A DNA stretch of 52,926 bases from an uncultured Bacteroidales bacterium (GTDB lineage: Bacteria; Bacteroidota; Bacteroidia; Bacteroidales; Paludibacteraceae): positions 1 to 52,926 of the forward strand of contig ONUF01000010.1 of the NCBI GenBank assembly GCA_900321005.1, read 5' to 3'. Under the pieces are notes generated by a model, which did not search any database, was not told where the DNA came from, and saw only the letters and a list, made by a program, of their open reading frames with translations. Shown one piece after another: positions 8,876 to 49,694 of the stretch. Position numbers and translations under genes: made by a program. The stretch's first letter is position 1, and the number at the start of each line of letters is the position of its first letter.

Positions 8876-8906
8876 TCCTAGGTTCCTAGGCCCCTAGGTT
8901 CCTAGT
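8876..8906. repeat. 8-nt tandem array (CCTAGGTT type)
   Basis: CCTAGGTT, CCTAGGCC, CCTAGGTT and a partial CCTAG follow in register between porU and porV. Confidence 0.75.
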
Positions 8907-8940
8907 ATTATTCAGCGATTTGCTTCATAGGCTATTCGTT

Positions 8941-8985
8941 CATTCTTTAATTCTTTAATTCTTTAATTCTTTAACTCTTTAATTC
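8941..8985. repeat. 8-nt tandem array (ATTCTTTA type)
   Basis: Five to six units of ATTCTTTA (one reads ACTCTTTA) end two bases before the porU stop codon on this side. Confidence 0.85.
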
Positions 8986-8986
8986 A

Positions 8987-11900
8987 TTATCTCGTTACAA
9001 TAATTTTTCCGGAGGAAGCGCTGTATCCGCTGCTTGCGGATTTGATACGAACGCTATATACATATACGCCGGCATTCAGTCCCATATCGGCCAGGTTGAT
9101 GACCACGCGATCCGGATTCTGCTGGGTATGACTCCAAATCATTTGTCCGCTCGTGTTATACAGATAGACTTCCGTCTGCAGCAACTCGTCCGGTTGGTCG
9201 TAGTTCACCACCAGGTTGAGTATGCCGGTCGATTGAACCGGGTTGGGGTAGGTGGTGATGGAGTAGATGGACGGATCCAAGCCGGCCTCTACGATGAAGT
9301 TCAACACCTGCGTCGTACTGTTGTTCAGCAGGTCCCATGCGCGGAACATCAGGCTGTGCGGACCGTTCGGCAGGGCCTCCATCAAGTAACTTACCTGTCC
9401 GGCCTGATAACTATTGTTTGCCGCCGTGAAATACTCGTTGAGCGTATAGGTCTTCTTGGCCTCGTCGTCGATGATGAGCATCAGGTCATGCCCGATACCT
9501 GCGCCCGCGGTGTTGATACCGTTCTCGTCATACAAGTCGGCAAAGAACCGCGGTGTCTCGTAGGTCTTGTCGCCATCCTTAAAGAGCGGCGTGTTCAGAT
9601 AGATGTGCATCTGCGGACCTACGGTGTCCTGTACCAGATAGGAACCCGTTCCGCCGATAGTGAAGTCCTCGAAATGGCCCACCGCCTCGATGGGCGCTAC
9701 CTCTTCTTCCGTACGCGCATAATAGACGATACGCCCGTTGCCGTAGTTATAACGGATGTCTTTGGGGACCATGAAGGTGTACTCAAATCGCCCGTCTTTC
9801 ACGGCTGTAGAACCGGAGAAGAGCATATTCGGATAGTCTTTGTAACTCACTACTTTGGGGTCTCCGCCGGCATTGTCGTTGTCGCGCGTCGGGATCTCCT
9901 GGATCTTATCATACACCGCGATATCCACCGCGCCGTTGAAATCCTCTACGACCTGCATATCCTCGTCCACGACACTTCCCTCGACGCGCTGCACACTCAA
10001 GGCATTGAGCGTGTCGATCTTCGTATCGGTGATGATCTGATAGTCCGTCGGGTAGTTCAGGCGGATAGCGGGGTCGCCTAACAGCACATACGGCAAGCGG
10101 TTCATCTCGCTCTTGGCCGCCCGCACATTCTTACCGGCAGCAATCGCCTCGCCGAGCGTAGCGTCGTAATGGAACGGCGTCTCGTGCTTGAACAGAGCGG
10201 CGCATACTGCGCGGTTGATCTCGTTGTTCTGCGCCGCATAGACGGTACGCGTAGCGGCTAAGATGCCGACCGCGCCGCCGTTCGGATTCAGCACGCAAGC
10301 TTCGGCTGCACAACGGCGACCGGAGTCAAACTGCGCGAAGTTGCAGGTTGCGAACAACCAGAAACCGAGGTTCGTATTGCGCATGTTCTCGATATCCTTG
10401 AGATTCAGAATCGACTCATTGGTGATGGCGTTATAGCCGCCGTGACCGGAGTAGTCGAAGAAGAGTACACCGCTCTTGAGCAGGTTCTCCACGCGGTTCT
10501 TGGCCAACGGATAACTCTCGCCGTTCGCATTCACCTCTTGCGGATAACCGTCGAGGAAAATCTTATGAATGATGAAGTCCGGGTTGGCGAGACGGATCAT
10601 CTCGGCGCTTATCTCCGAGGTCTCCGTGTGCGTGCCGCCTTCTCCGTCGTCCGCCAGATACATCAACTGGGTCTTCCATTTGCCTGCCTGCTCATTGTTC
10701 ATGTAGCGGATGAGTTTGTCCACTACCTCGCGGGCCTCTGTCAGGTTGTTGATCGGCAGACGACCTACGCCGATCTCCATCATACCGGTGTTATCGTTCT
10801 CGCCTTCATTATCATCGAGAAAACCGAAATAGTCGTCGGTCGCATAGCCGCTCACTTCATTCACGGAGTTCTTCGCTTCATAGGTCAGCAAGAGCGAAGT
10901 ACCCGAGTTGGGCAATAACTTACGGTTGTCGAATGTACCGTGACCCATCAGTAACAACCACCGCGGCTTGGCGATACCGTTGCCGTCGGCGCGGTCGTAC
11001 AGCATCTTCATCAACCAGCGGTAAGCCGTGGCGTCCGGGGTACCCGAAGAAAACTCATTATATACCTGTTTGTCGGTTACCACCGCCCAAGTGATTCCTT
11101 GTTTCTGCTCGTGCGCTTTCGCCAAGTCCGTTGATACCGCTTCGTAACCCTCCGGACAGATGATGACATAGTCGATATTCTTCAGCGCGTGCAGGTTCTG
11201 GTTCGCTACCGCCCCTACAATCTGCGCGCTAACCCACGAGCTTCCTTGCGGGTTGACGGCTACATATTCACGCACGCCGCTTGCCTGCGAACCGGTCCAA
11301 AGGAGCGTGTCGTTCTCCATCGTCGTCGGCATTCGGCGTATATGCGCCAAATCCGTGATATCCCATATCTGTGTAGATGCGCTTGCATCACTCAGATGGA
11401 AGCGTACCGGATCATTCGTGCGGTAATTGCTGTTCGTGCGTACGGGCAACCAACTGCCGCGCATCTTCAGCTCAGTCGGAGTGGTCATCTCGATATAGTT
11501 CAACCAACCCAGCGCACCCGCCGTGCTGTTGGCAAACGTCAGTTGTACCTGCTGCTTCTCCGCAGCCGTGGTGGCAGACATGCTCAGCGAACCTACGCAC
11601 GCAAAGGTGTAGAAATCCGGGTAAGGTTTGATAGAGATCGATCCGGTCGTGCCGTTGAAGTTGCAGCGGAAGGTGGAGTTGATCTTCGAATAACCGGCTA
11701 CATCGATAAATGCGCGGCTTGACTCGCCTTCGATTGCATTCGGGGTAGAGAAAGAGATCGTACGCTTCTGGTTGGCATTGAACTGCTCGCCGTAGAACTC
11801 GCGTCCTCCGCCGGCCACACCGCTGCGGTCAATCAGGTTCAACGAGTCTTTCTCATGTACCTGGTAAGCCGGGTATTGGTATATATCGGTGGCTTTGCCT

Positions 11901-12337
11901 TCTATCGCTTCTGCCGTTGTCGGCGCCAGCATCTCACCGACATTATCGGTCAGCATATAGTAGCCGTAGTCGGAGTAGGGATTGCGGGTATGCGTGAAGC
12001 GCGTGCCGTCATACGACCAACTGATAGGACCTTGTACCCAGAAGAGCACATAGTCGGCGCCTACATATACCGGCACTTGCGGAAGATCGTCTATCTTGGT
12101 TTTCGAGAAGTCCTGTACCAACATCGCGCCGCCGTAGCCGTATACGCGCAACTGCGTAGGCTCGATACCTGCGCTGCGTAACTGACTAAAGGTCATGCGA
12201 CATACGCCGCTCTCGCTCACGCGCATCTTCACCCAGTGCCCGTTCGCCAAAACTGACTCATCGGTGTACGAGTGAATACCCGCCATCAGCGGAAGGCTCA
12301 TCGCCACGAAAAGTACTATCGATAGAATCTTTCTCAT
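8987..12337 (-). CDS. porU: Type IX secretion system sortase PorU (C25 gingipain-like)
   Basis: A 1116-residue protein. Residues 1-19 are a signal peptide. A beta-rich N-terminal region precedes a C25 cysteine peptidase domain (about 390-770) with catalytic His632 in DYSGHGGYNA and Cys665 in FATCNFAQFD. The C-terminal ~85 residues are a type A sorting-like Ig domain (YPNPVQSTGILNL, VYLYNTSGQMIW, LNAGVYVYSVRI). PorU removes the C-terminal signal of type IX cargo and joins the cargo to surface lipopolysaccharide. It overlaps the FAH-family gene by 4 bp (ATGA) and is followed by porV, the usual pairing. Length is typical for the family. Confidence 0.95.
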   Translation of the reverse strand: MRKILSIVLFVAMSLPLMAGIHSYTDESVLANGHWVKMRVSESGVCRMTFSQLRSAGIEPTQLRVYGYGGAMLVQDFSKTKIDDLPQVPVYVGADYVLFWVQGPISWSYDGTRFTHTRNPYSDYGYYMLTDNVGEMLAPTTAEAIEGKATDIYQYPAYQVHEKDSLNLIDRSGVAGGGREFYGEQFNANQKRTISFSTPNAIEGESSRAFIDVAGYSKINSTFRCNFNGTTGSISIKPYPDFYTFACVGSLSMSATTAAEKQQVQLTFANSTAGALGWLNYIEMTTPTELKMRGSWLPVRTNSNYRTNDPVRFHLSDASASTQIWDITDLAHIRRMPTTMENDTLLWTGSQASGVREYVAVNPQGSSWVSAQIVGAVANQNLHALKNIDYVIICPEGYEAVSTDLAKAHEQKQGITWAVVTDKQVYNEFSSGTPDATAYRWLMKMLYDRADGNGIAKPRWLLLMGHGTFDNRKLLPNSGTSLLLTYEAKNSVNEVSGYATDDYFGFLDDNEGENDNTGMMEIGVGRLPINNLTEAREVVDKLIRYMNNEQAGKWKTQLMYLADDGEGGTHTETSEISAEMIRLANPDFIIHKIFLDGYPQEVNANGESYPLAKNRVENLLKSGVLFFDYSGHGGYNAITNESILNLKDIENMRNTNLGFWLFATCNFAQFDSGRRCAAEACVLNPNGGAVGILAATRTVYAAQNNEINRAVCAALFKHETPFHYDATLGEAIAAGKNVRAAKSEMNRLPYVLLGDPAIRLNYPTDYQIITDTKIDTLNALSVQRVEGSVVDEDMQVVEDFNGAVDIAVYDKIQEIPTRDNDNAGGDPKVVSYKDYPNMLFSGSTAVKDGRFEYTFMVPKDIRYNYGNGRIVYYARTEEEVAPIEAVGHFEDFTIGGTGSYLVQDTVGPQMHIYLNTPLFKDGDKTYETPRFFADLYDENGINTAGAGIGHDLMLIIDDEAKKTYTLNEYFTAANNSYQAGQVSYLMEALPNGPHSLMFRAWDLLNNSTTQVLNFIVEAGLDPSIYSITTYPNPVQSTGILNLVVNYDQPDELLQTEVYLYNTSGQMIWSHTQQNPDRVVINLADMGLNAGVYVYSVRIKSASSGYSASSGKIIVTR

Positions 12338-12855
12338 TTGATTTTGCAGTATAATTTCTCTTCTCCGTCGATCTCAACGCGGATGATCTCTTCTTTGCTT
12401 ACCGTCCTCGGCGCTTGTTTTTTCTGTATGTAAATCAAGTCTCCCTGCCGAATGGTCATCACTTTGCTTGCTCTTGCTATCGCCTCTTCCGGACTCAGTA
12501 CATAGTCTGAATACTGATTGCTGATTACTGACGGCTCCACAAACTCTCCAATCGCTAGCGAGTAGTCGAATGCCAAGGCTTCTGTCCAAGGCCGACCGGC
12601 TTTCTGTGCTTCGCGCGCCAAGTCCAGCGCGATGAAGTCTGCTCCGGGAGCTACGGCGTCGTAGTAACGACTGGCGAACTTAGGAGCGATCTCTTTTCCC
12701 AAACGGCTCACGCGCAAGATCATGCATTCTGTCACTCCCAATTCCTTCGTCCATTCCGGCATGAATAGCGGCTTGCGACCGTTTAGCAGACAGGAGTCGC
12801 CCTTGAGTACCATCTCACTTTCTTCCCCTCGATATATAAAGCCGATTATCTTCAT
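12334..12855 (-). CDS. Fumarylacetoacetate hydrolase (FAH) family protein, short form
   Basis: A 173-residue protein from ATG 12855 (MKIIGFIYRG); a TTG two codons upstream is less likely. RLGKEIAPKFASRYYDAV, DFIALDLAREAQK and FDYSLAIGEFV follow the FAH-domain pattern, with the later SPEEAIARASKVMTIRQGDL. The family cleaves C-C bonds or decarboxylates beta-keto acids; the substrate is unknown. Residues near EPSVISNQYSDY are encoded by a 7-nt tandem array that looks like an insertion in a loop. It is the first gene of the porU-porV-ispF-aroK operon, 17 bp from the -7 box. Confidence 0.8.
   Translation of the reverse strand: MKIIGFIYRGEESEMVLKGDSCLLNGRKPLFMPEWTKELGVTECMILRVSRLGKEIAPKFASRYYDAVAPGADFIALDLAREAQKAGRPWTEALAFDYSLAIGEFVEPSVISNQYSDYVLSPEEAIARASKVMTIRQGDLIYIQKKQAPRTVSKEEIIRVEIDGEEKLYCKIK
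12507..12533. repeat. 7-nt tandem array inside FAH-family gene
   Basis: Units TACTGAT, TGCTGAT and TACTGAC at exact 7-nt spacing. They encode part of VISNQYSDY. Confidence 0.65.
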
Positions 12856-18002: not shown

Positions 18003-18053
18003 TACAGGCATGCGTGCCCGTATGCACACAATACGCCAAAATAAAATCGGCCG

Positions 18054-18084
18054 CAAAGGTACAACAAAAAAATGACATACGCAA
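18054..18084 (-). promoter_or_regulatory. Promoter of lptD-slyD-der
   Basis: Minus-strand TTGCGTATGTCA, a T-run, then TACCTTTG with 20-bp spacing. The expected start near 18048 decides against the longest LptD frame. Confidence 0.85.
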
Positions 18085-18386: not shown

Positions 18387-18417
18387 TTGCGTATGTCATT
18401 TTTTTGTTGTAATTTTG
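18387..18417 (+). promoter_or_regulatory. Promoter of leader and glycosyltransferase
   Basis: TTGCGTATGTCA, a T-run, then TAATTTTG with 20-bp spacing. It is almost identical to the lptD promoter. Confidence 0.85.
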
Positions 18418-20000: not shown

Positions 20001-20005
20001 CACCC

Positions 20006-20445: not shown

Positions 20446-20463
20446 CAGTCGCAAAAGTTTTTT

Positions 20464-21765
20464 ATGGCAACGATTTGTGCGATATCAACGGCCTATGGCG
20501 CGGGCGGAATAGCCGTCATCCGCGTCTCCGGCGAGCAAGCTGTCGCGATAGTAGATAGCCTCTTTGCCGGGCGTGTGCGTTTATGTGACTCAGCGGCGAA
20601 TACCATTCATTTCGGCCGGATTCAACGGGGAAATGAGGTGTTGGATGAGGTGCTTTGTTCCGTATTTCGCGCGCCGCATTCCTTCACGGGAGAAGACACG
20701 GTGGAGATCGCGTGCCACGGAAGCCTGTATATCCAGCAGGAGTTGCTGCGGTGGCTCATCGATGCGGGTTGTAAGGCTGCAGAGCCGGGTGAGTTCACCC
20801 GTCGCGCGTTCATGAACGGCAAGATGGACCTGACGCAAGCTGAAGCCGTAGCGGACCTCATCGCCGCGCAGTCCAAAGCAGAGAAAGACCTGGCGCTGAG
20901 TCAGTTACGCGGTTCGGTATCCAATGAACTGGCGTCGCTACGCGAGAGGCTGCTGCATTTCACTTCCCTTATTGAACTGGAACTGGACTTCGCGGACCAT
21001 GAAGAGTTGGAGTTCGCCGATCGAACGGAACTGAGCCAATTAGCCGATGAAATCGAGACAAAACTCGCGGCATTGATGGCTTCTTTCCGCACGGGCAATG
21101 CCATCCGCAACGGAATACCCGTCGCTATCATAGGTGCGCCGAACGTAGGTAAATCGACATTGCTCAATGCGCTGCTGGGCGAACAACGCGCGATCGTAAG
21201 CGATATACAAGGTACCACGCGCGACACGATAGAAGACACGCTCGTGTTGGACGGCATCCTCTTCCGACTCATCGACACCGCCGGTATACGCGATACGAAA
21301 GATACTATCGAACAATTAGGCGTCGAGCGGTCCAAACAAGCTGCCCAAAAAGCACAAATAATAATATTTCTGAGCGATAATGGACAATGGACAACGGACA
21401 TTGTACACTCAGGAACCATTATCAAGGTTCTCAACAAATCCGACTTAGGCGTAAAAGGTGACGGAATTCTTATCTCCGCCAAGAACGGCGAGATAGAGCC
21501 GTTGAAAAGGGAGTTAGTACGCATCGCAAGGGCATCGCTCCAGACCTCGGCTGTGATGCTATCCAATGCCCGTCATTATGACGCTATCACCCGTGCGCAT
21601 GACGCGATTGTGCGCGTTCAAAAAGGTATGGCGCAAGGTCTCTCCGGAGAACTGCTCTCGATGGACCTGCAGGACTGCCTCTCCGCCCTCGGAGAAGTGA
21701 CGGGCCAGATCACCAATGCCGAAGTGCTATCGAATATATTCAGCAAATTCTGTATAGGCAAATGA
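20464..21765 (+). CDS. mnmE: tRNA uridine-5-carboxymethylaminomethyl modification GTPase
   Basis: 433 residues from ATG 20464 (MATICAISTAYGAGG); the frame opens earlier at 20443, inside the promoter. The N-terminal folate-binding domain has GGIAVIRVSG and GEFTRRAFMNGKMDLTQAEA; the embedded G domain has [31 protein letters not shown] and NKSD; the C-terminus is FCIGK with the essential Cys. With MnmG it modifies the wobble uridine of several tRNAs. Residues around SDNGQWTTDIVHSG come from a 7-nt array, a likely inserted loop in the G domain. The stop overlaps yicC (ATGA). Confidence 0.97.
   Translation: MATICAISTAYGAGGIAVIRVSGEQAVAIVDSLFAGRVRLCDSAANTIHFGRIQRGNEVLDEVLCSVFRAPHSFTGEDTVEIACHGSLYIQQELLRWLIDAGCKAAEPGEFTRRAFMNGKMDLTQAEAVADLIAAQSKAEKDLALSQLRGSVSNELASLRERLLHFTSLIELELDFADHEELEFADRTELSQLADEIETKLAALMASFRTGNAIRNGIPVAIIGAPNVGKSTLLNALLGEQRAIVSDIQGTTRDTIEDTLVLDGILFRLIDTAGIRDTKDTIEQLGVERSKQAAQKAQIIIFLSDNGQWTTDIVHSGTIIKVLNKSDLGVKGDGILISAKNGEIEPLKRELVRIARASLQTSAVMLSNARHYDAITRAHDAIVRVQKGMAQGLSGELLSMDLQDCLSALGEVTGQITNAEVLSNIFSKFCIGK
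21377..21410. repeat. 7-nt tandem array inside mnmE
   Basis: Units AATGGAC, AATGGAC, AACGGAC and a diverged ATTGTAC at 7-nt spacing, in frame in the G domain. Confidence 0.7.
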
Positions 21766-22652
21766 TACTATCTATGACCGGCTACGGAAAGACCGAGATA
21801 ACTTTCCGAACACACAAACTGATCTGCGAGATCCGTTCGCTCAACTCCAAGACAATGGACCTGTCTGTGCGTCTGACACCTGCGCTGCGGGCACGCGAAC
21901 TCGAACTTCGCACGATCGTCAGTCAACGCCTCGAACGAGGGAAAGTGGACCTCTTCATTAGTGAAGAATCAGCTATCAGTAATCAGTCATCAGTGGTCAG
22001 TCCTGTGAACTGGGCGGCTGCCAAGGAATATGCGCGGCAGTACACCGAGCAGTTCGGAAGTCCCGTTCCCGCCGAAGTGATGGCATCCATCTTGCGCTTT
22101 CCGGATGTGCTCAAACAACAGGAAGATACGTCCGACCTCACCGACGAGGAGTGGAGCGATATCCAAGCAATGCTCAACAAAGCGCTCGATGCGTTTATTG
22201 CTTTCCGCACCCAAGAAGGCGCAGCGCTCCAGGCGATGTTTACGGAAAAACTCGATGGAATCGCGGATTTGTTGGCGCAAGTGGAGCCGTTTGAGAAGGG
22301 TCGCGTAGCGAAGATCAAAGAGCGCCTGGAGCAAAACCTCGCGCAACTCTCCGCCGAGACGCAAGCCCAGATAGACCGCAACCGCCTCGAGCAAGAGATG
22401 ATTTATTACCTCGAGAAACTCGATATCACCGAGGAAAAAGTGCGACTCACTAATCACATCAAGTACTTCCGGGAGACCATGCTCGCAGAAGGCAACGGAG
22501 TAGGGAAGAAACTCGGCTTTATCGCCCAAGAGATGGGACGCGAGATCAATACCCTCGGTTCGAAATCCAACCAGAGCGAGATGCAGATCATCGTCGTCAA
22601 GATGAAAGATATACTCGAGCAGATTAAGGAACAGGTACTGAATGTTCTTTAA
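21762..22652 (+). CDS. yicC: YicC family endoribonuclease-like protein
   Basis: A 296-residue protein starting ILSMTGYGK, the family's hallmark, with RSLNSKTMDLSVRLTP, RLERGKVDL and the C-terminal DUF1732 part RLTNHIKYFRETM, GKKLGFIAQEMGREINTLGSK. E. coli YicC is reported to be an endoribonuclease that degrades the small RNA RyhB. Here it overlaps mnmE by 4 bp and precedes gmk, a neighbour seen in many genomes. A loop encoded by a 7-nt array (SAISNQSSVVS) sits after GKVDLF. Confidence 0.93.
   Translation: MILSMTGYGKTEITFRTHKLICEIRSLNSKTMDLSVRLTPALRARELELRTIVSQRLERGKVDLFISEESAISNQSSVVSPVNWAAAKEYARQYTEQFGSPVPAEVMASILRFPDVLKQQEDTSDLTDEEWSDIQAMLNKALDAFIAFRTQEGAALQAMFTEKLDGIADLLAQVEPFEKGRVAKIKERLEQNLAQLSAETQAQIDRNRLEQEMIYYLEKLDITEEKVRLTNHIKYFRETMLAEGNGVGKKLGFIAQEMGREINTLGSKSNQSEMQIIVVKMKDILEQIKEQVLNVL
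21966..22004. repeat. 7-nt tandem array inside yicC
   Basis: Five units AATCAGC, TATCAGT, AATCAGT, CATCAGT and GGTCAGT at exact 7-nt spacing, read in frame. Confidence 0.8.
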
Positions 22653-26739: not shown

Positions 26740-27255
26740 TCATTTGCGATTGGAAGCCCTCAGCTCCGTGGAAGATATATTGAAATAAGGAGCAGAGGTC
26801 AAAAATATGATATTTTGGGCATTGCTGATTGCTGATTGCTGATTGCTGATTGCTGATTTCCTTGGATAGACAAATATTCGGAAATTCTCCAAAATATATT
26901 CCCATTCCCGCCATTGGGTGAAGATAGCTAAGTTGTCTTCGCCAATAACCAGAGTGAACTCATGTTCCGGATAGGCCTTTTGTAGTGCCCGAAGGGTATT
27001 GGCGGTATAAGAGGGACGAGGTAAAGAGAATTCAAAATCACTTGCCTTAAGTCCCGGGATATCCTTGATCGCTCCGCGCACTGCTGCCAGACGTTCTTCT
27101 TCCGGAGCCAGTATTCCTGCCGGTTTCAACGGGTTATTCGGACTCACAAGCAACCATAGTTCATCGAGGTCTGTATGCTCAATGACCCATTTTGCCAAAC
27201 CCACATGCCCGAAATGCACGGGATTGAAACTGCCTCCGTAGATACCTATTTTCAT
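26740..27255 (-). CDS. nadD: Nicotinate-nucleotide adenylyltransferase, short C-terminus with heptamer insertion
   Basis: 171 residues from ATG 27255 (MKIGIYGGSFNPVHFGH), giving the GGSFNPxHxGH nucleotide-binding motif at residues 7-17. LVSPNNPLK, FSLPRPSYTANTLR, GEDNLAIFTQW and the late ISSTELR fit NadD, which makes the dinucleotide precursor of NAD. Two features are odd. SAISNQQSAISN is encoded by a 7-nt array. The protein also stops 5 residues after ISSTELR, whereas relatives continue roughly 20-30 residues with a terminal helix. The array offers a route to frame slippage. It overlaps dnaE by 4 bp (ATGA). Confidence 0.88.
   Translation of the reverse strand: MKIGIYGGSFNPVHFGHVGLAKWVIEHTDLDELWLLVSPNNPLKPAGILAPEEERLAAVRGAIKDIPGLKASDFEFSLPRPSYTANTLRALQKAYPEHEFTLVIGEDNLAIFTQWREWEYILENFRIFVYPRKSAISNQQSAISNAQNIIFLTSAPYFNISSTELRASNRK
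26820..26860. repeat. 7-nt tandem array inside nadD
   Basis: Near-perfect heptamer array of ATTGCTG (plus strand), five to six units, the most uniform array in the window. Loss or gain of one unit would shift the nadD frame. Confidence 0.9.
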
Positions 27256-31176: not shown

Positions 31177-32112
31177 ATGGCAAAAAAGAATAGCGAAGAA
31201 TTTGTGGCCGTCATCGCGCTGATTGTGTCGATGATTATCTGGTCGGTGAGCGGCATCGCCATCAAGCATGCCTTAGCCGTGTTACCGCCGTTTACGATGA
31301 TCGTGCTGCGCTTTGTACCTTCGGTACTGTTGATGCTGGTCATCGGTCTTATCTGCCGCAAGAGTAGCCTTTTTGCTTTGCAAAAACTGGAGTGGAAAGA
31401 CCTGCCGCTATTCCTCATCGCGGGTTTCTGTCAGCCCTTCCTGTATTACCTCTTGGAGACCTTTACATATGACGCGCTGAATAGCCCGACGATTGCGGAG
31501 ACGCTGCTGTCCACGAGTCCGTTGCTAAGTCCGATTTTTGCGGCCGCTCTATTGCGCGAACGCGTGACGCGAAACAACATCCTCGGTATTCTCGTTTCTA
31601 CGGCCGGTGTGTTTGCGCTGTCGCTCATCGGAAGCAAGGACTATTCGATCGGCAATTACTGGGGTATTTTATTGGCTTTTGCAGCCGTTTCTGCCGCTGT
31701 CATCGACTCCATCATGATGCGTAAGGTACCCGCCAAATACACCTCGCTGACCTTTATTTTCTACGCGCAATGCGTGAGTCTGCTGTTCTTCCTTCCTATC
31801 TGGTTCTGGAAAGAAGGACCGGAGGCAATATACAATTTACAATTTACAATTGACAAATCGCAACTTTATGTTGCGTTAGGTTGCGTGGCATATCTGACGG
31901 TGTTTGCAAGCGTGATTGCGTTTATCCTGTTTTGCGCCGCGCTGCGTAAGGTAGGCGTGACGCAGGCCAATGCGTTTAACAATATCCGCCCGGCGTTTAC
32001 GGCCCTCTGGATGTTCCTCTTTTTCGGCGAACATTTGCCTATCGGCAAGTGGATCGGCATGGCGCTGATCATTATCGGACTTTTCGTTTGTCAGAAAAAA
32101 GAAGCACAATAA
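31177..32112 (+). CDS. EamA/DMT family transporter
   Basis: 311 residues from ATG 31177 (MAKKNSEEFVAV), just after the promoter. Ten hydrophobic segments in two EamA halves; the first half carries LRFVPSVLLML and SPLLSPIFAAALLRE, the second NNIRPAFTALWMFLFFGE and GMALIIIGLF. Such permeases export or import small metabolites such as amino acids or nucleobases; the substrate is not predictable. NLQFTIDKSQLY in the loop between halves is encoded by a 7-nt array. Confidence 0.9.
   Translation: MAKKNSEEFVAVIALIVSMIIWSVSGIAIKHALAVLPPFTMIVLRFVPSVLLMLVIGLICRKSSLFALQKLEWKDLPLFLIAGFCQPFLYYLLETFTYDALNSPTIAETLLSTSPLLSPIFAAALLRERVTRNNILGILVSTAGVFALSLIGSKDYSIGNYWGILLAFAAVSAAVIDSIMMRKVPAKYTSLTFIFYAQCVSLLFFLPIWFWKEGPEAIYNLQFTIDKSQLYVALGCVAYLTVFASVIAFILFCAALRKVGVTQANAFNNIRPAFTALWMFLFFGEHLPIGKWIGMALIIIGLFVCQKKEAQ
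31829..31853. repeat. 7-nt tandem array inside EamA gene
   Basis: Units ACAATTT, ACAATTT, ACAATTG, then ACAAATC at 7-nt spacing, in frame. Confidence 0.75.
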
Positions 32113-39271: not shown

Positions 39272-39299
39272 CTAAACACTAAACATTAAACATTAAACT
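39272..39299. repeat. 7-nt tandem array at acyltransferase 3' end
   Basis: TAAACAC, TAAACAT, TAAACAT, TAAAC. On the minus strand it encodes the last residues (SLMFNV) and the stop codon of the acyltransferase. Confidence 0.8.
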
Positions 39300-40277
39300 T
39301 TTACGGTGATTTATCTCCGGAAACTTATACATCTCATAAAGTTTCTCACGCAGGAACGCCTCGTCTTTGTTCGGTAACTCGATTTTGGCCAGGCGGCTCT
39401 CGATGTACGCATCAAATTCCGTGCCACGCTCGTAGATTTCATAGCCCAGATGAATATGGCGGTCGATGATGTCGCATACATGCTGCAACTGGTCATGCGG
39501 CGGGAGTTTGCGGTATTCGGGATGCGCCGCCAACATCGCCTCTATCTCAGGGTTGATGCTCGGCGTGAGACGATAAACCACGCGTCCTTTCTCTCCTCGA
39601 ATACCGGTTACCATCGACTCCACATCATCCTTCGCACGCTTCTTCCAATTCGGATTATCGCGTCTGAGTTGCATCTCGCGGGCTTTGAGATAGTCGCACG
39701 GATCGAACTCGTAGGTGATGCTGACGGGGCATATGTTAAGGGCTTTTACCGCCTCAAAGAGATCGTCGGTATTCATCGTCAGCATATGCAGTACGCTCGC
39801 CTGCGTGAGGTCGTTGCTGTCTTTGGCGCGGCCTTCTCGCTGTGCCAACCAGATGGACTTGCGTCGCTGCCGCAACTCGCGGATATACGCCGACAGCTGC
39901 TTGGCATTCTCCAAGTGCGCATGAGCGCCCGCGCCGCGCTTCACTACAAAACAGCGGTTGTAACGCACCAGGTGCTCAATCCATTTCTTGGCAAACAGGT
40001 TATTGCCGATACCGATGAACGGGCGAATGAAATAGCGGCAGCGGAGCAGGAGCGAGAGCCAGGAGGCATCGAGGATGATGTCGCGGTGGTTCGTGATGAA
40101 GAAGGCACCATGCTTGATGTCGCGTTCTATCTGCTTGCGGTCACCCAGATAGTCCAGACGGATGCCCTTCGTCGTCCGCCATGCCCATATGCCGAGTAGC
40201 GGGAAGGCAAATAGAAAATCCGTGATGGGTAGGATAGCCCCAACCCGATATGCGCGTATGTCTTTAAACTGATCCAT
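39279..40277 (-). CDS. PlsC-like 1-acyl-glycerol-3-phosphate acyltransferase family protein
   Basis: A 332-residue protein with one or two N-terminal hydrophobic segments and the acyltransferase blocks FFITNHRDIILDASWL (variant of the NHx4D motif) and IWLAQREGRAKDSND (in the EGTR position). DPCDYLKAREMQL and LGYEIYERGTEF lie in a long C-terminal part found in Bacteroidota members. It is probably an inner-membrane lipid acyltransferase; the exact substrate is uncertain. Its final six residues come from a 7-nt array, so the native end was probably altered. Confidence 0.85.
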   Translation of the reverse strand: MDQFKDIRAYRVGAILPITDFLFAFPLLGIWAWRTTKGIRLDYLGDRKQIERDIKHGAFFITNHRDIILDASWLSLLLRCRYFIRPFIGIGNNLFAKKWIEHLVRYNRCFVVKRGAGAHAHLENAKQLSAYIRELRQRRKSIWLAQREGRAKDSNDLTQASVLHMLTMNTDDLFEAVKALNICPVSITYEFDPCDYLKAREMQLRRDNPNWKKRAKDDVESMVTGIRGEKGRVVYRLTPSINPEIEAMLAAHPEYRKLPPHDQLQHVCDIIDRHIHLGYEIYERGTEFDAYIESRLAKIELPNKDEAFLREKLYEMYKFPEINHRKSLMFNV

Positions 40278-40320
40278 TACACTTTACACATTCCACACTA
40301 CACATTCCACATTACACATA
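40276..40320. repeat. 7-nt tandem array (ATTACAC type) truncating yigZ
   Basis: ATTACAC, TTTACAC, ATTCCAC, ACTACAC, ATTCCAC and ATTACAC at perfect 7-nt spacing. On the minus strand it provides the last two codons and the stop of the short YigZ gene, and fills the gap to the acyltransferase ATG. Confidence 0.9.
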
Positions 40321-40665: not shown

Positions 40666-41870
40666 TAAATTCCGAGTTTCTTGCGTATGTCTTTGGGTAT
40701 GGCGTTCTTGTGCACGAGTACGTCATTCGTCTTGTACTGCATGAATGCCTCGCTGATGTACCAGATGCCTTTGTAGTCGGACTTGAGGGTACCCCAACTA
40801 TTCTTGACCATGTAATAGCGTTTGCCGTTCTGGTCTTTGGCGGTGCCGAATATCTGCATGCCGTGGTCGTCGGTGTTCTCCCAGTTGTCGAACGCGTCCT
40901 GACGCATCTGTTGGGTGATGGTTTTCTCCGGCAGCGGGCGCTTGGTCAGTTCCTCTTTCTGCTTGTCTTTTGTCATACCCACCCATTTCTGCATGTCGCT
41001 GCCCGTGAGGTCTGCGCCGTGGTCGGCATCCGGCACTACACCGATGCCTTTGCGGGTAAAACCTATCTCCGATACATCGGCGCCCCAGGCGAGGGTATAA
41101 CCCTTGGCGAGCGCGTTGTCGATGATGCGCATCATGTCCTCCAACGGCACATTGTACATCTGATCCATGCGCCAGTTATCCGGCACTTCGAGTGCGAAAC
41201 GCTCATAGAAAGGATGATGCGTGTAGGAGGTGATAGACACATAGTCCTCGGCGTTCAGTCCCAAGCTCTTCACGAACGACTGCGGCGTGTATTGCTTGCC
41301 CTCGTATTCGAACTCCGTAGGACACGATCCGAGGTAGGTGTCGTAGATAGCCTGCAGACCCTCGCGCCATACCGGCGACAGTTTCTTCTGCTTCTTCAGT
41401 CCGCTCAGATAACCGCTTGCTACGGCCGTCAACTCGCTGAAGACGGGTAGGGTGTCGGCTTCGGTCCATCCGTAGCGGATACCGGGCATCGCGCTCTTCG
41501 GCACGAGACCGTAGTGCTGCATGCAGTAGATCACGTCGTAGGCCGATCCGCCTTCTGCAAATCGGGGCTCGTTATACAGACGCACGCAATAGGTCGCGCG
41601 GTCGATAAGCGTTTTGCTCACCACGAACATCGGACTGAGTTCCACCTCTTTGCCTTTGATACGCAGCACTTCCGACTCTAAGAATCCGAGCGTAGAGAAC
41701 GCCCAGCATGTCCCGCTGCGGTGTTGGTCCTTCACTCGCGTGATAGGTATGCTATCCACCGTCGTGAATTGCCAACCTTCCACGCTATCTTTTTTTACTT
41801 GCGTGCTATCACTCTGCGCAAAAGCGCTAATACTTACCGCCAGAGCGGCTATAATCACTAATTCTCTCAT
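40665..41870 (-). CDS. Secreted C1 (bleomycin hydrolase-like) cysteine peptidase
   Basis: 401 residues from ATG 41870 (MRELVIIAALAVS), with a signal peptide ending ISAFAQ. Catalytic Gln and Cys are in KDQHRSGTCWAFSTLGF, His in ENTDDHGMQIFG and Asn in YMVKNSWGT. The domain layout is that of aminopeptidase C / bleomycin hydrolase (C1B), but with an export signal. It probably trims peptides in the periplasm. The first codons (MRELV) fall within an 8-nt array. Confidence 0.92.
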   Translation of the reverse strand: MRELVIIAALAVSISAFAQSDSTQVKKDSVEGWQFTTVDSIPITRVKDQHRSGTCWAFSTLGFLESEVLRIKGKEVELSPMFVVSKTLIDRATYCVRLYNEPRFAEGGSAYDVIYCMQHYGLVPKSAMPGIRYGWTEADTLPVFSELTAVASGYLSGLKKQKKLSPVWREGLQAIYDTYLGSCPTEFEYEGKQYTPQSFVKSLGLNAEDYVSITSYTHHPFYERFALEVPDNWRMDQMYNVPLEDMMRIIDNALAKGYTLAWGADVSEIGFTRKGIGVVPDADHGADLTGSDMQKWVGMTKDKQKEELTKRPLPEKTITQQMRQDAFDNWENTDDHGMQIFGTAKDQNGKRYYMVKNSWGTLKSDYKGIWYISEAFMQYKTNDVLVHKNAIPKDIRKKLGI

Positions 41871-41891
41871 TCTCTCATTCACTAATTCATT
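41857..41891. repeat. 8-nt tandem array between prfB and C1 peptidase
   Basis: TAATTCTC, TCATTCTC, TCATTCAC and TAATTCAT at 8-nt spacing. Its reverse complement belongs to the same family as the arrays near ftsA and in murC. Confidence 0.85.
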
Positions 41892-44914: not shown

Positions 44915-46342
44915 ATGATGAAGCAAGAGGATATACAAACGATCTTTTTTCTCGGTATCGGAGGTATCGGAATGAGTGCGTTGGCGCGGTATTTTCATAG
45001 CCGCGGCTATCGCGTGTGCGGATACGACCGCACGCCTTCGGCGCTGACCAAAGAGTTGGAAGAAGAAGGGATGCCGGTCATCTGTGAAGATGACGTAAAC
45101 GCTGCTCTGCAGCTGTTAAACGCAGCCTCCGGCTGCTGTGTAAACGCTCCGGAGGAGCCGTGTAAAAGTGTCAAAGACACTTGTTTAGTCGTTCGGACGC
45201 CGGCGGTGCCGGAAGAGAATGCGATATATACCTATCTGCGGGAGCAGGGGTATGAGATCCTCAAGCGCGCGGAGGTGTTAGGTCTCGTGACAAAGCAGAT
45301 GAAAGCGCTCTGCGTAGCCGGCACGCACGGAAAGACGACGACCAGCACAATGATCGCGCACCTGATGCAACCCGTCAATGCGTTCCTCGGCGGTATCAGT
45401 ATGAACTATCACACGAACCTGCTGCTGGACAAAGAGAGTGAGTACGTGGTAGTTGAAGCCGATGAATACGACCGCTCGTTTCATCACCTAAAGCCCTATA
45501 TATCCGTAGTGACAGCCGTCGATGCCGACCACTTAGATATCTACGGCACGGAAGAAGCCTACCGCGAGGCATTCGCGCACTATACGAGCCTCATCACCGG
45601 TGCGCTCGTGATGAAGCATGGGATAGAACTGGAGCCACGACTGCAGCCGGGAGTGAAACTATACACCTATGGTGTAATGAATGAGGGAGTTAGTGAATTA
45701 GTGAGTGAGAGGCCCGATTTCTATGCGACGAATATACGCGTGGCAAACGGAGATATCCGTTTTGACCTCGTGACGCCGAAAGGAACGATAAAAGACCTGC
45801 AACTCGGTGTGCCGGTATGGGTAAATATCGAAAATGCGGTGGCAGCCATCACGGTAGCGTTGTTGACGGGTGTTTCGGAAGACCGCATCAAGACCCAAAT
45901 GGCCAGTTTCAAGGGCGTGTGGCGGCGGTTTAATATCCATGTCAACACCCCGAAAGTGGCGTATATAGATGACTATGCCCACCATCCGCAAGAGATAGCA
46001 ACAGCCATCGACTCGATCCGCAAACTCTATCCCGATCGCAAGCTGATAGGAGTTTTCCAGCCGCATTTATATACCCGTACACGGGATTTCGCAGAAGGTT
46101 TCAAGCGTGTGTTGGCTACCCTGGACGAGTGTCTCTTGTTGCCGATCTATCCGGCGCGGGAAGAGCCGATACCGGGAGTGACGAGTGAGATGCTCGGCGG
46201 GCAGGTGGTACAGAAGGCAGAGCTCGTCGCGGAGTTGCAGCGGCGCGTGGCAGCGAGCCGGGAACCCGTGGTAGTGCTCACCGTCGGCGCCGGAGACATT
46301 GACCGACTTGTACCACAAGTGGCACAAGCGCTGAGTGAATGA
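44915..46342 (+). CDS. murC: UDP-N-acetylmuramate--L-alanine ligase with repeat-derived insertions
   Basis: 475 residues from ATG 44915. FLGIGGIGMSALARYF at the N-terminus, ATP loop VAGTHGKTTTSTM, EADEYDRSF and DDYAHHPQEI define MurC, which adds L-Ala to UDP-MurNAc. About 20 extra residues (NAASGCCVNAPEEPCKSVKD) lie before LVVRTPAVPEE compared with relatives as I recall them; the DNA there is three consecutive small hairpins. A second addition, NEGVSELVSE, comes from an 8-nt array. The C-terminal ALSE and stop also lie in such an array. It heads a division operon. Confidence 0.95.
   Translation: MMKQEDIQTIFFLGIGGIGMSALARYFHSRGYRVCGYDRTPSALTKELEEEGMPVICEDDVNAALQLLNAASGCCVNAPEEPCKSVKDTCLVVRTPAVPEENAIYTYLREQGYEILKRAEVLGLVTKQMKALCVAGTHGKTTTSTMIAHLMQPVNAFLGGISMNYHTNLLLDKESEYVVVEADEYDRSFHHLKPYISVVTAVDADHLDIYGTEEAYREAFAHYTSLITGALVMKHGIELEPRLQPGVKLYTYGVMNEGVSELVSERPDFYATNIRVANGDIRFDLVTPKGTIKDLQLGVPVWVNIENAVAAITVALLTGVSEDRIKTQMASFKGVWRRFNIHVNTPKVAYIDDYAHHPQEIATAIDSIRKLYPDRKLIGVFQPHLYTRTRDFAEGFKRVLATLDECLLLPIYPAREEPIPGVTSEMLGGQVVQKAELVAELQRRVAASREPVVVLTVGAGDIDRLVPQVAQALSE
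45114..45182 (+). repeat. Hairpin cluster inserted in frame in murC
   Basis: Consecutive small palindromes GCAGCC-TCC-GGCTGC, GCTCC-GGA-GGAGC and AAGTGTC-AAA-GACACTT, separated by TAAACG-like or GTGTAA linkers, encoding a Cys-rich loop. Confidence 0.7.
45677..45711. repeat. 8-nt tandem array inside murC
   Basis: GAATGAGG, GAGTTAGT, GAATTAGT and GAGTGAGA at 8-nt spacing, in frame. Confidence 0.8.
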
Positions 46343-46350: not shown

Positions 46351-47101
46351 TAGAACGGTAAAGATCATATTGCAGAGTGTGGGAGTGGCGGTCATGGCGG
46401 GACTGCTGATAGCGGCTGTGGTGAGTGGTTACAAGAACCGCCCGGCGGAGCAGGAATGCCGTTCGTTACGCTATATGATCGAAGACCGTGAGGAACGGTT
46501 GTACCTGACGGAGATAGAGTTGACGCAGCTCTTGCGGGCGAAGGATCTGTATCCCGTGAACCGCGTGGTAGCGCCGACGACGCTGCATCAGATAGAGAAG
46601 ACGATAGCGCAGCATCCGATGGTGCGCACGGCGCAATGCTATATCACCCCGCGCGGGGAGATGAAAATACGTATCACGCAGCGCATACCGTTGTTACGCG
46701 TACAGACGCCGATAGAGGTGTATTTCATCGACACTGACCGCCGCGTGATGGCGTATCGGGAGAGTGTGCGGGACAAAGTGCCGGTGGTGACGGGCAATGT
46801 AGGCGTGACGCAGGCTTCGAACAGTTTGGCGGATTTCGCACTGTGGTTGCAGAAAAACGACTACTGGCGGCCGCGTATCCATCATTTACAAGTACAAAAC
46901 CCGCAGATGGTTTATCTGTATCTGAGTGATCAGCATTCAGTAATCAGCGTGCAGCGCGTGGTGCTGGGTTCGATGCGTGGGTACGAGGCAAAGCTGAATA
47001 AGTTGCGCGTGTTCTTAGAGGACGGGAAAGAGGCGCTGAAGGACAAGCAATACAGGGAAATCGACCTGCGGTTCAAAGGGCAGGTCGTGGGAAGGAATTA
47101 G
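46343..47101 (+). CDS. ftsQ: Cell division protein FtsQ
   Basis: A 252-residue protein beginning at GTG 46343, directly after the murC stop. One N-terminal membrane segment (VGVAVMAGLLIAAVV), then the POTRA-like IEKTIAQHPMVRTAQCYITP and beta domain (GEMKIRITQRIPLLRV, YFIDTDRRVM) found in Bacteroidota FtsQ. It links early and late divisome parts in the periplasm. SDQHSVISVQ is encoded by a short 7-nt array. Position between murC and ftsA supports the call. Confidence 0.92.
   Translation: MVNRTVKIILQSVGVAVMAGLLIAAVVSGYKNRPAEQECRSLRYMIEDREERLYLTEIELTQLLRAKDLYPVNRVVAPTTLHQIEKTIAQHPMVRTAQCYITPRGEMKIRITQRIPLLRVQTPIEVYFIDTDRRVMAYRESVRDKVPVVTGNVGVTQASNSLADFALWLQKNDYWRPRIHHLQVQNPQMVYLYLSDQHSVISVQRVVLGSMRGYEAKLNKLRVFLEDGKEALKDKQYREIDLRFKGQVVGRN
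46926..46949. repeat. 7-nt tandem array inside ftsQ
   Basis: GATCAGC, ATTCAGT and AATCAGC at 7-nt spacing, in frame. Confidence 0.6.
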
Positions 47102-47130
47102 TGAGTGAATGAGTGAGTGAATGAGAGAGT
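47095..47130. repeat. 8-nt tandem array between ftsQ and ftsA
   Basis: GAATTAGT, GAGTGAAT, GAGTGAGT, GAATGAGA, GAGT. It includes the ftsQ stop codon and ends right at the ftsA ATG. Confidence 0.85.
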
Positions 47131-48414
47131 ATGGCAAAGAAACAGATACAAAAAGCAGACAGCCTTCCGTTGGTGGCGATTGACTTGGGTAGCGACAGCG
47201 TGCGTGCCATGGCTGCCCGTCGTCTGTCGGCGGATTTCTTCCAGATCTTAGGAGTGGAAGAGCGGCCGCAGAAGATGGGGAATATATGCGTGGAGCAGGG
47301 CGTAGTGACGCAGTCGAGCAATGCCGGATACGTCATCGCCGAGGTGCTCAAACTGCTGGCGAACCGCATCGGTGTCGATGAACTGCCTACGGCCTTCCTG
47401 GCTATCGGCGGGTACTCGATGCAGATAGTGGCGGTGCATTCCCGTCGCGACCAGGCGCGCCGTAAGGAGATCAGTCAGGCGCTGCTCGACGATATGGAGC
47501 GGGAGTGCAAGGAGAAGATCGAAGTGCGCAACCCCGACGTGGCGGTGTTGGGTCTCGTCCCGAGTTATTTCAAACTCGACGGCGTAGAGCAAGACGAGAC
47601 ACCTTCGCCGGAACAGCGCGCGGCGCTGGTAGAAGCGTACTATATCGCTTTCTGCGGTCGCAAAGCGATCGACACGCAGTTACAGAAAGCTTTCTCGCAA
47701 GCCGGCCGTAGTATCGAGCAGGTGTTCGTGCGTCCGGAGGCTTTACTCTCGGCCTTTGCTACCTGCGACGGCAACCAAGTGCTGACGGAGGGTTGTGCGG
47801 TATTCGATTTCGGCGCGCAGACCACGACGCTGACGGTCTATAAGGGTGGGCAGTACCTGCTCAACAAGGTTGTGCCGAAAGGCGGTTATCATATCACGCG
47901 TATGCTGGAGCAGCAAGGCCTGAGTTTTAACACCGCCGAGGTGCTGAAGAAGAAGTTCGGATGTGCCGCTCCGCAGTTTGTAGAGAAAAACGTGCGGCTG
48001 CGTGTGCCGGCCGTGCCGGAGATAGGCGGCGACATCGTCATCGCTTCGCAGGAGTTGGCGGGCGCGATAGAGATCAAGTTACAGGAGATCCTGGCGCCGC
48101 TGTTGGAGGAGTTGAAGAAAGTGGAGAGCCGGATCAAGACCATTTATATCACTGGCGGCGCGAGTATGCTGCAGGGCCTTGACGCTTACCTGCAGGAACA
48201 GACGCCCGTGCATGTATGCTACGGCGCGCATAACTACCTGCTGCATCGCGACACGGAAGAGAAATACCTCTCGCCGGAATATACTTCGCTAGTGGGTACC
48301 ATCCTCTTGGGACAGGACTACCGCGACAGCCATAAGGACCAGTTGGTTCGCAAGCCCGGGTTCTTTGACCGCGTCAAAGAGTCCACATTAGACATGTTTA
48401 TCGAAAGTGAATAA
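47131..48414 (+). CDS. ftsA: Cell division protein FtsA
   Basis: A 427-residue actin-like ATPase: phosphate-1 motif VAIDLGSDSVRA, the SHS2/1C domain, phosphate-2 CAVFDFGAQTTTLTVY, adenosine loop YITGGASMLQGL, and a C-terminal amphipathic end FFDRVKESTLDMF for membrane binding. It anchors FtsZ to the membrane. The stop is 4 bp before the ftsZ ATG. Confidence 0.96.
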   Translation: MAKKQIQKADSLPLVAIDLGSDSVRAMAARRLSADFFQILGVEERPQKMGNICVEQGVVTQSSNAGYVIAEVLKLLANRIGVDELPTAFLAIGGYSMQIVAVHSRRDQARRKEISQALLDDMERECKEKIEVRNPDVAVLGLVPSYFKLDGVEQDETPSPEQRAALVEAYYIAFCGRKAIDTQLQKAFSQAGRSIEQVFVRPEALLSAFATCDGNQVLTEGCAVFDFGAQTTTLTVYKGGQYLLNKVVPKGGYHITRMLEQQGLSFNTAEVLKKKFGCAAPQFVEKNVRLRVPAVPEIGGDIVIASQELAGAIEIKLQEILAPLLEELKKVESRIKTIYITGGASMLQGLDAYLQEQTPVHVCYGAHNYLLHRDTEEKYLSPEYTSLVGTILLGQDYRDSHKDQLVRKPGFFDRVKESTLDMFIESE

Positions 48415-48418
48415 GAAT

Positions 48419-49669
48419 ATGGAAGACAATTTCACCCTTCCGCTGGAAGGATTGACAGAAGACAGTATCATCAAGGTGATCGGAGTAGGTGGTGGCGGAT
48501 GCAACGCCGTGAACTACATGTTTCGTCAGGGACTGAGCGATGTCTCGTTCCTCGTGTGCAACACCGACCGCCAAGTGCTCATCAAGAGTTCGGTGCCGAG
48601 TAAGTTACAGTTAGGCCCGGGTTTGGGTGCGGGCGGCGATCCCGAGACCGCGCGTCAGTATGCCGAGGAGAGTCGCGAGCATATCCGTGAGGCGCTCAAT
48701 GACGGCACGCAGATGTTGTTCATCACCGCCGGTATGGGTGGTGGCACGGGCACAGGCGCTTCGTCGATCGTAGCCGAAGTGGCGCAAGAGATGGGTATTC
48801 TGACCGTCGGTATCGTGACGATTCCGTTTGCCTTCGAGGGCAAGAAGAAGATCGAGAAAGCGATGACCGGTGTGGCGCGTCTGGCCAAACATGTGGATGC
48901 CCTTCTCATTATTAATAATGAGAAACTGAAACAGATATACCCGGAACTGAACCTGCTCAATGCCTTCAGTAAGTCGGATGACGTAGTCGCGAATGCGGCT
49001 CGCGCAATCGCCGAGATCATCACCGTGCCAGGCTATATCAACACGGACTTCGCCGATGTGCGTAACACGCTCCGCAAGGGTGGTGTAGCAATCATGAATA
49101 TCGGTCATGCTTCGGGCGAGAAGCGTATCACCAATGCCATCAACGACGCCCTCAACTCGCCGCTCGTCAACACCAACGACGTGCACGGCGCGGAGCGTAT
49201 CCTGCTGCAGTTCTACTGCTCGACGGAGCACGCTATCGTGATGGAAGAGATTGATCAGATTAACGACTTCGTACAAGAAGTAGGCGACGATATCGAGGTG
49301 CAGTGGGGTGCGTCTATCGACGAGAGTCTGGGCGAAGAAGTGCGCGTGACGGTCATCGCCACAGGCTATAAGGTGGACGGTCTTCCTTCGGAAGAAGAGG
49401 AGGAAGGCAAGAAGACCATCGCCGAAGCGATCGACGCCAACTACCCGCCACAGACACCGAAACCGATGGAGGACGAGAACCCGCAACTCATCGACCTGAG
49501 TGAGACGCTCTTTGCCGAAGGCTTCGAGACCGCGCCGCGTCAACCGCGCGAGCATGCCGTTTCGACCTCGGCCGATGATGTGGTCATCACCATCGAAGAT
49601 GAACCCAAAGAGGAAAAGAAAGTGGAGGAAGAGCCGCGTCGGCCTTTCGGATGGATTCGCAGGAAGTAA
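48419..49669 (+). CDS. ftsZ: Cell division GTPase FtsZ
   Basis: 416 residues from ATG 48419 (MEDNFTLPLEG); GTG 48407 is possible. GGGGCNAVNYM, the tubulin signature GGGTGTGASS, TIPFAFEGKKK and NTDFADV are canonical. The linker (about 330-400) is acidic, and the tail ends RRPFGWIRRK, a basic membrane/FtsA-contact peptide. It forms the division ring. Last of the murC-ftsQ-ftsA run. Confidence 0.97.
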   Translation: MEDNFTLPLEGLTEDSIIKVIGVGGGGCNAVNYMFRQGLSDVSFLVCNTDRQVLIKSSVPSKLQLGPGLGAGGDPETARQYAEESREHIREALNDGTQMLFITAGMGGGTGTGASSIVAEVAQEMGILTVGIVTIPFAFEGKKKIEKAMTGVARLAKHVDALLIINNEKLKQIYPELNLLNAFSKSDDVVANAARAIAEIITVPGYINTDFADVRNTLRKGGVAIMNIGHASGEKRITNAINDALNSPLVNTNDVHGAERILLQFYCSTEHAIVMEEIDQINDFVQEVGDDIEVQWGASIDESLGEEVRVTVIATGYKVDGLPSEEEEEGKKTIAEAIDANYPPQTPKPMEDENPQLIDLSETLFAEGFETAPRQPREHAVSTSADDVVITIEDEPKEEKKVEEEPRRPFGWIRRK

Positions 49670-49694
49670 TGTGTAATGTGTAAATGTGTAAAGT
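49667..49694. repeat. 7-nt tandem array after ftsZ
   Basis: TAATGTG, TAATGTG, TAAATGTG, TAAAGT. It contains the ftsZ stop codon and ends at the next ATG; same family as the array at 40276 (reverse strand). Confidence 0.8.

Follow-up and report, generated by a model that had tools for sequence, protein, structure and literature searches.

The window analysed here, a stretch of 52,926 nt from an uncultured bacterium of the Paludibacteraceae (contig ONUF01000010.1), carries short degenerate tandem arrays with a unit of 7 nt and, less often, 8 nt, located between genes as well as inside conserved ones. Their units are taken from a small, genome-specific pool of words, and relatives can carry different words at the same site. 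We propose that the arrays form a dispersed, fast-turning-over class, in which new arrays would be copied from existing ones and then be subject to slippage and decay, and we consider this to have about an even chance of being correct. The window is one contig (C14) of a 2.12-Mb genome in 54 contigs, 78% complete and referred to below as G000. Its RF2 protein is nearest to those of uncultured Bacteroidales and Paludibacteraceae, many of them ruminant-derived, among the best 80 of 592 related loci. Below, L numbers denote loci and G numbers genomes. Genes were predicted with a simple codon-usage caller, giving a coding fraction of 0.85-0.86.

Period and placement of the arrays

An earlier note on this DNA had listed fifteen arrays of 7- or 8-nt period. 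They are real: fourteen were recovered within 7 bases by Tandem Repeats Finder (TRF) at a score of at least 30, and the remaining one, at 46926, falls below this score, although visual inspection shows a decayed heptamer array there, within ftsQ. At the same score the window yields 15 rows of period 7 or 8, corresponding to 14 arrays because one array gives two rows, whereas 30 order-3 Markov shuffles of the window gave 1.8 rows on average and never more than 4. A stricter lag scan detected 6 period-7 and 2 period-8 arrays, versus 0.05 and 0.0 in 20 shuffles.

The same distribution was calculated on a sample of 681,970 bp of the genome (32% of it, window included), where periods of 14 and 21 were assigned to 7, and 16 to 8, only if the identity at lag 7 or lag 8 was at least 0.6, the rest being dropped. 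This sample holds 89 arrays at period 7, 14 at period 8, 1 at period 6 and none at 5 or 10. No period-7 array occurred in 768 kb of order-3 null sequence, so dispersed degenerate tandem 7-nt arrays are in clear excess, as in the heptameric short tandemly repeated repetitive (STRR) sequences to which the earlier note had likened them. The genome-scale period distribution, named beforehand as the check on which that note's proposal depended, thus shows the excess in the sampled genome. The note had also set the two periods side by side; the sharp peak at 7 stands, but 8 is a minor companion because of the 89 to 14 count. In other stretches of the same genome (256 kb, ungapped lag scan) we counted 32 arrays at 7, 5 at 8 and 2 at 9, with periods 5, 6 and 10 unrepresented. 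Three other species of the genus exhibit the same peak at period 7, with 28 arrays in G048 (318 kb), 27 in G002 (400 kb) and 22 in G014 (317 kb), and the lags favoured in counts of exact runs in non-coding DNA include 7, 8, 11, 14 and 21. In loci of other Bacteroidales the period-7 arrays are sparser but still form a peak (21 in 876 kb), together with 17 arrays at period 9 and 13 at period 22.

The close relatives being uncultured, metagenome-derived assemblies, we considered an artefact of assembly or binning, which is scarcely credible: arrays are found at the same sites (EamA, yicC and 39272) in the separate genome record of the nearest relative found, G053 (RUG372), they keep reading frames, and six of the 21 period-7 arrays of the other Bacteroidales come from L124, a sequenced named strain, Prevotella sp. 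tc2-28.

Arrays were called junction arrays when at most 90% of their length was covered by called genes. Among the 121 period-7/8 arrays of the own-genome sample 73 satisfy this definition, the majority of them located at operon junctions, compared with 15.5% of random placements (p ~3e-29); with a limit of 50% coverage the figures are 70 of 121 and 13.9%. The other 48 lie inside called genes. A typical junction array bridges two genes on one strand, running from the stop codon of the first to the start of the second, and many arrays are a few nucleotides from, or overlap, the genes on both sides. In the window, the eight listed arrays supposed to be genic do lie in open reading frames, those studied falling in variable loops, and the remaining ones occupy junctions and spacers, where some provide stop or start codons (Table 1). 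The arrays are head-to-tail heptamers over a range of about 20 to 74 nt, and the median length of the coding ones is 32, 31, 29 and 33 nt in G000, G048, G002 and G014, respectively.

For the arrays in the NadD, YicC, EamA, MurC, FtsQ, MBOAT, MnmE and FAA-hydrolase proteins, the loop varies in both length and residues among the relatives listed, between conserved flanks. The nadD loop varies in length across the genus, most relatives listed have an ftsQ loop shorter by 4-5 residues, and the FAA-hydrolase loop differs in sequence and length in both homologues listed, L328 (G053) and L303 (G014). In these alignments the residues of the array loops are mostly unshared, as expected for insertions; residues shared with relatives, which the earlier note had said would tell against its proposal, are mostly absent. 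MnmE is a partial exception. Among at least nine homologue rows listed, 7 of the 8 distinct loops have other residues (L248 and L175 share one loop), while the loop of L173 (G044) resembles that of the window.

The position of stop codons depends on the placement. At junction heptamer arrays of known sense in G000, 49 of 55 units carry a stop in the sense direction and 20 of 55 in the antisense direction; in coding arrays a sense stop occurs in 8 of 43 units and an antisense stop in 33 of 43, leaving 35 of 43 without a sense stop. The other genomes give a less clear picture; junction units in G048, for example, have stops in 12 (sense) and 7 (antisense) of 15. Word families are shared in opposite senses, for instance AATCAGC and AATCATC in genes and ACTGATT and ATGATTG at junctions. 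The stop asymmetry of G000 and the opposite senses of shared words are what a coding filter on one pool of words would yield. The strong junction bias and the sense-strand stops would also suit selected regulatory elements, either targets of a protein that binds RNA or DNA or multi-frame stop and reinitiation signals at operon junctions, and post-transcriptional binding is proposed for TAACTGA arrays near start codons in the accessible part of MacGregor's paper (PMC4679880). We nonetheless regard this explanation as improbable: 48 of the 121 arrays are inside called genes, many of them in the opposite sense of the same words, the words at one junction differ between relatives, many of which have no array there, and a coding filter alone predicts the stop bias. 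Single junctions may have a regulatory role, but such a role fits the turnover poorly.

Word reuse, array ends and turnover at shared sites

The 104 heptamer arrays of the own-genome sample fall into 54 unit classes, mostly A+T-rich and many with stop codons; AATGTGT alone accounts for 11 arrays. The earlier note had called the units unrelated, which did not hold. They recur as classes: over four genomes, 184 within-genome pairs share a class, whereas shuffling of the genome labels gave 87 on average and reached 184 in 0 of 5000 permutations. The excess persists when coding and junction arrays are shuffled separately, when same-word arrays within 2 kb are counted once (161 pairs versus 75 expected, 0 of 5000) and when G000 is left out (34 versus 18, 3 of 5000).

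Some genomes show bursts of one word. Exact triples of the AATGTGT class, searched in 41 genomes with forward and reversed patterns pooled, gave 9 matches in the own genome and 1 in G006; because AATGTGT reversed is one of its own rotations, both patterns detect a single repeat class. Exact triples of AAAGGTG gave 24, 12 and 10 partly overlapping matches in G042, G046 and G015, occurring in 12 of the 41 genomes and in none of the other 29. In G042 the 12-mer AAAGGTGAAAGG has 83 matches versus 7 for its reversed control, grouped into 38 clusters on 18 contigs (hand count).

Reuse extends to a marked variant of the AAAGGTG word. Searching 61 genomes with one triplet left free, we retrieved 38 non-pure matches, some of which share one array or homologous loci; in 29 the free triplet is TTA, which removes an in-frame TGA. 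Twelve of the 20 TTA loci retrieved have flanks similar to none of the others, and at 10 of these 12 the longest open frame, a putative coding frame, contains KGERLKVKG, as expected of in-frame copies in unrelated genes. In L357 the mark is kept in the opposite reading sense, and in L363 the frame is closed through the array.

In L312, L313 and L314 (G042) an AAAGGTG array near the N-terminus is read as LSPFTFHLSP, which has the look of a signal-peptide hydrophobic core at least in L313 and L314. Similar translations around the array, KxKxERxxKVKGERLKVKG followed by a hydrophobic stretch, are found in L346, L347, L351, L352 and L361, perhaps a gene family with AAAGGTG-built N-termini.

In the two word families compared, the arrays also begin and end at preferred phases of their unit. 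In the AAAGGTG set, retrieved with a 20-base pattern, AAAGG forms the end of 14 of the 22 arrays (p 1.5e-7) and the beginning of 11 (p 8e-5). For the 27 AATCA/AATGA arrays of the own genome the preferred end is CAAT, in 13 of them (p 3e-5), and the preferred beginning is AATC, in 11 (p 7e-4). These p-values are binomial, with one phase picked after looking. The AAAGGTG set is made of L306-L325, in which L307 and L319 are orthologous, L316 holds an array of just 20 nt, and G046 is represented by only two of its places; counts from L346-L365 were not used for p-values because the search pattern biases them. Seven of the 12 G042 arrays in the set are 33 nt long. Such ends could belong to a micro-element with defined ends, about 30 nt or four and a half heptamers long, copied into junctions and protein loops with preferred start and stop points and encoding no enzyme, the bursts then being recent spread; we think this rather unlikely.

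Genome-specific words and phase-biased ends would equally suit addition from an RNA template by a reverse transcriptase or a telomerase-like enzyme. This is very improbable, however, as one genome uses many words (54 classes in 104 arrays) and the reverse transcriptase family RVT_1 exceeded its cut-off in just 4 of the 12 genomes searched, arrays being uncounted in three of the twelve (G007, G011 and G017). RVT_1 was not found, in this search, in the array-bearing genomes G046 and G047 (both 97% complete), G048, G014 and G053, and a reverse transcriptase therefore seems unneeded.

Shared sites were compared by reading the junction words after RF2, at the UPF0029 gene and at ftsA by eye. Downstream of RF2, in 32 relatives in which the gene after RF2 is not always identical, the 8-nt word of the window is replaced by other words in L057, L060, L065, L066, L067, L076 and L082; L061 and L064 have no word, and L062 has an apparent single 7-nt duplication. 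The UPF0029-acyltransferase junction contains AATGTGT in the window and AAGTTGA, AGTTTGA, AAGGTGA or AGTTGAG elsewhere, unless the genes overlap. At the ftsQ-ftsA junction clear arrays, each with its own word, are present in the window, G046 (AAAGGTG) and G044 (TTGGTAA), the other rows having mostly short spacers. Within genes, one loop, whose flanks are 89 and 84% identical in the two genomes, is built of AATCACC units in the own genome and of AAAGGTG units in G053. The RF2 and neighbouring junction spacers of L059, L065, L066 and L068 contain short pieces of other kinds, palindromic or GC-rich, so that these junctions look like general insertion spots.

G053 has flanks 78-98% identical to those of the own genome. 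After arrays less than 260 nt from the end of a stretch were dropped, 119 of the 121 own arrays were kept and 21 could be placed on both flanks; 6 of them have no net length change and 15 have changed, by whole units in five cases (-14, +7, +14, +42 and +42 nt). In the window, the 8934 array is shorter in G053 and has a variant unit (net 19 nt), the 39272 array is two units (14 nt) longer there, and the 40275 array is missing from it (net 42 nt). In the reverse comparison 12 of 52 G053 arrays were placed on the own genome. The 38 indels between the two genomes include lengths of 7, 7, 14 and 42, too sparse for a peak.

Changes of 7, 14 and 42 nt, the sharp period and the tolerant places are what one would expect of purely local slippage, in which the polymerase slips by 7 nt and tolerant sites expand their own heptamer, similar junction sequences (TAATG, TGATG, AAGG) giving similar words. 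The apparent new duplication in L062 and the L066 word, which by eye resembles the start of the downstream gene, point the same way, and the idea is in print, in the accessible parts of PMC4692102 and PMC4679880. We hold local slippage to be possible but on the doubtful side. It does not account for the reuse of words within a genome, the phase-biased ends or the stop-removing mark shared by unrelated genes, and it would leave a local match at sites lacking the array. At eight such sites in the own genome or G053 the unit is matched over at most 3-6 nt (mean 4.4, versus 4.2 for swapped units), showing no excess.

Copying is preferred to slippage alone because of the reuse of words and of the mark at unrelated places, the phase-biased ends and the sites without the word. 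An existing array would donate a copy of some 30 nt of its sequence to a new site, with template switching during replication or gap repair as one possible route; 7-nt replication slippage would then lengthen or shorten the array, and point mutation would erode it. Selection would act as a filter, the stop-bearing strand surviving at junctions and the strand open in all frames surviving inside genes. A host function would not be needed, the arrays acting as tolerated, self-spreading filler that reshapes spacers and loops. The earlier suggestion that units are brought in rather than expanded from a local seed thus receives indirect support, from unit reuse, end phases, the marked variant and the eight array-less sites.

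Several points weigh against copying. Copying itself was never seen to happen, and neither a donor nor a recipient can be named. Patch copying by itself leaves the 7-nt word length unexplained. The junction stop asymmetry is weak or absent in G002 (8 sense and 6 antisense of 15) and G014 (16 and 16 of 20). Of the 15 non-zero length changes relative to G053, just 5 are multiples of 7 nt (p 0.05), some junction arrays look as if they arose from the local start-codon sequence (L066 versus L064, by eye), and AATCACC triples occur in 16 of the 41 genomes, so not every word is genome-specific. The TTA preference could reflect selection for leucine, and the end-phase p-values treat the arrays of one genome as independent. 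When all 12 sites of the local-seed comparison are taken, the local match is better than for swapped units (mean 6.6, p=0.0008), which is due to four sites that already held an array (W:8934, L228:15378, L234:14320 and L326:18476); these four were set aside by eye, the remaining eight are few, and mutation in the sister genome could have erased a seed. It is the lack of an observed copying event and the possible selection for leucine that hold our confidence to about one half.

The many related species available here allow the same junction or loop to be compared with and without an array, which makes it possible to count births, changes of word and decay. Should the arrays be copied and not grown locally, bacteria would add short filler to proteins and operon spacers with no known transposase needed, and loops of conserved proteins (NadD, YicC, MurC, FtsQ) would be remodelled within a genus.

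Relation to known repeat systems

A survey credited by later work on such repeats was reportedly made in 2007 by Mrazek and colleagues. The heptameric STRRs of heterocystous cyanobacteria use a small set of G/C-rich consensus words. G-rich arrays of GGGAATC/GGGGATT are described from Xanthomonas and Nostoc in the accessible part of PMC4692102, which also reports a heptamer excess in many bacteria, with slippage as the explanation, and credits the 2007 survey. As far as these sources go, our arrays resemble both kinds in being degenerate 7-nt repeats, mostly intergenic, at many loci and variable in length and sequence between close relatives. In contrast to their one or few G-rich words, the present arrays are mostly A+T-rich and stop-bearing, with 54 classes, and frequently lie in frame within genes.

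Rickettsia palindromic elements (RPEs) are palindromic and about 100-150 bp long. Like RPEs, the arrays are short repeats spread in frame into protein-coding genes at tolerated places; unlike them, they are head-to-tail heptamers, and no palindrome of about 100 bp or more is formed by arrays of their length. In the simple sequence repeats of contingency loci the unit number changes by slippage, leading to phase variation. Unit-number change by slippage is common to both, but the present arrays occur in housekeeping genes without sign of on/off switching, and a change of one unit would shift the frame.

The closest likeness is to the TAACTGA direct repeats described in Beggiatoaceae, Cyanobacteria and Bacteroidetes, as well as in Paludibacter propionicigenes (MacGregor 2015, PMC4679880), whose mobility is discussed in the accessible part of that paper with no mechanism given. 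Both are few-unit heptamer arrays near start codons and over upstream stops, with differences in 7-nt steps and with stops in all frames in one sense and open frames in the other, the rare copies of TAACTGA inside open reading frames being in the open sense. TAACTGA is, on the same source, one fixed word, whereas here 54 classes with genome-biased favourites are found in 104 arrays, words are replaced at orthologous sites, and 48 of 121 arrays are inside called genes. The rotation class of TAACTGA itself, AACTGAT, is the consensus of just 2 of the 104 own-sample heptamer arrays. Likeness to published heptamer repeats is thus upheld for placement, stop logic and 7-nt excess. In our literature search, for which subscription journals were mostly beyond reach, we found no paper on such arrays in Paludibacteraceae, and the peptides encoded by the arrays were not found in the literature searched. 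The heptamer excess, the slippage idea and the placement and stop logic are therefore known, and arrays with many genome-biased words that swap at a site appear, from sequence comparison, to be a new variation.

Arrays of the window and neighbouring repeats

The arrays of the window are described in Table 1. The 8934 array supplies the stop codon of the C25 peptidase gene (8987-12301).

Table 1. Tandem arrays of period 7 or 8 in the window; units are in the sense direction where so marked.
Position	Strand	Array	Location	Basis and remarks
8875..8905	.	8/16-nt, CCTAGGTT	spacer after C25 peptidase gene	TRF; partly kept in G053
8934..8989	-	8-nt, sense unit AAAGAATT, 7 units	spacer after C25 peptidase gene	TRF, score 84
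12507..12531	-	7-nt	FAA-hydrolase gene, variable loop	TRF
21379..21400	+	7-nt, AATGGAC, codes NGQWTTD	mnmE, variable loop	TRF
21967..22002	+	7-nt, AATCAGT	yicC	TRF; AATTAGC/AATCAGC units in same G053 loop
25500..25527	+	7-nt, AAATCAT	MBOAT gene, variable loop	TRF, homologue alignment
26821..26858	-	perfect 7-nt, sense AATCAGC x5.4, codes SAISNQQSAISN	nadD	TRF
31826..31856	+	7-nt, CAATTTA	EamA transporter gene	TRF; equal length in G053
39272..39298	-	7-nt, sense GTTTAAT/GTTTAGT	covers acyltransferase stop, before coaD-like gene	TRF
40275..40319	-	7-nt, sense AATGTGT	fills UPF0029-acyltransferase junction	TRF
41855..41889	-	8-nt, sense GAATGAGA	covers RF2 stop and C1-peptidase gene start	TRF
45678..45704	+	weak 8-nt, TGAATTAG	murC	TRF; loop shorter in 5 of 7 distinct relatives listed
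46926..46955	+	decayed 7-nt, ATCAGCA class	ftsQ	sequence and alignment; below TRF score 30
47095..47130	+	8/12-nt, GAATGAGT	fills ftsQ-ftsA junction	TRF
49666..49691	+	7/8-nt, GTAATGT	between ftsZ and next gene	TRF

Searches of the window gave no Rfam match above the gathering threshold and no tRNA in a tRNA scan. Repeats of other kinds are present. The stretches 18052-18085, 18387-18426, 19928-20010 and 20395-20471 each have dozens of matching places in G053, and two of them are mutually inverted, so they look like the ends of a dispersed element of the repetitive extragenic palindrome (REP) or miniature inverted-repeat transposable element (MITE) kind, distinct from the heptamer arrays. Arrays of period 11 occur at 43311-43374 and 20132-20174 (TTTAGTTCTTA and GGGGTGATTAC, respectively); 11 nt is a secondary peak in the repeat spectrum of the clade, and 22 nt is one in the other Bacteroidales loci. 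A 12-nt array at 36531-36581, in the gene of a DUF4874/DUF4832 protein, codes for a Pro-Asp linker (PDPDPD) in the frame read by eye. Finally, at 7586-12337 a PorV-like gene adjoins the gene of the C25 (gingipain-type) peptidase, which has a weak match to a secretion tail, a pairing that points to type IX secretion.

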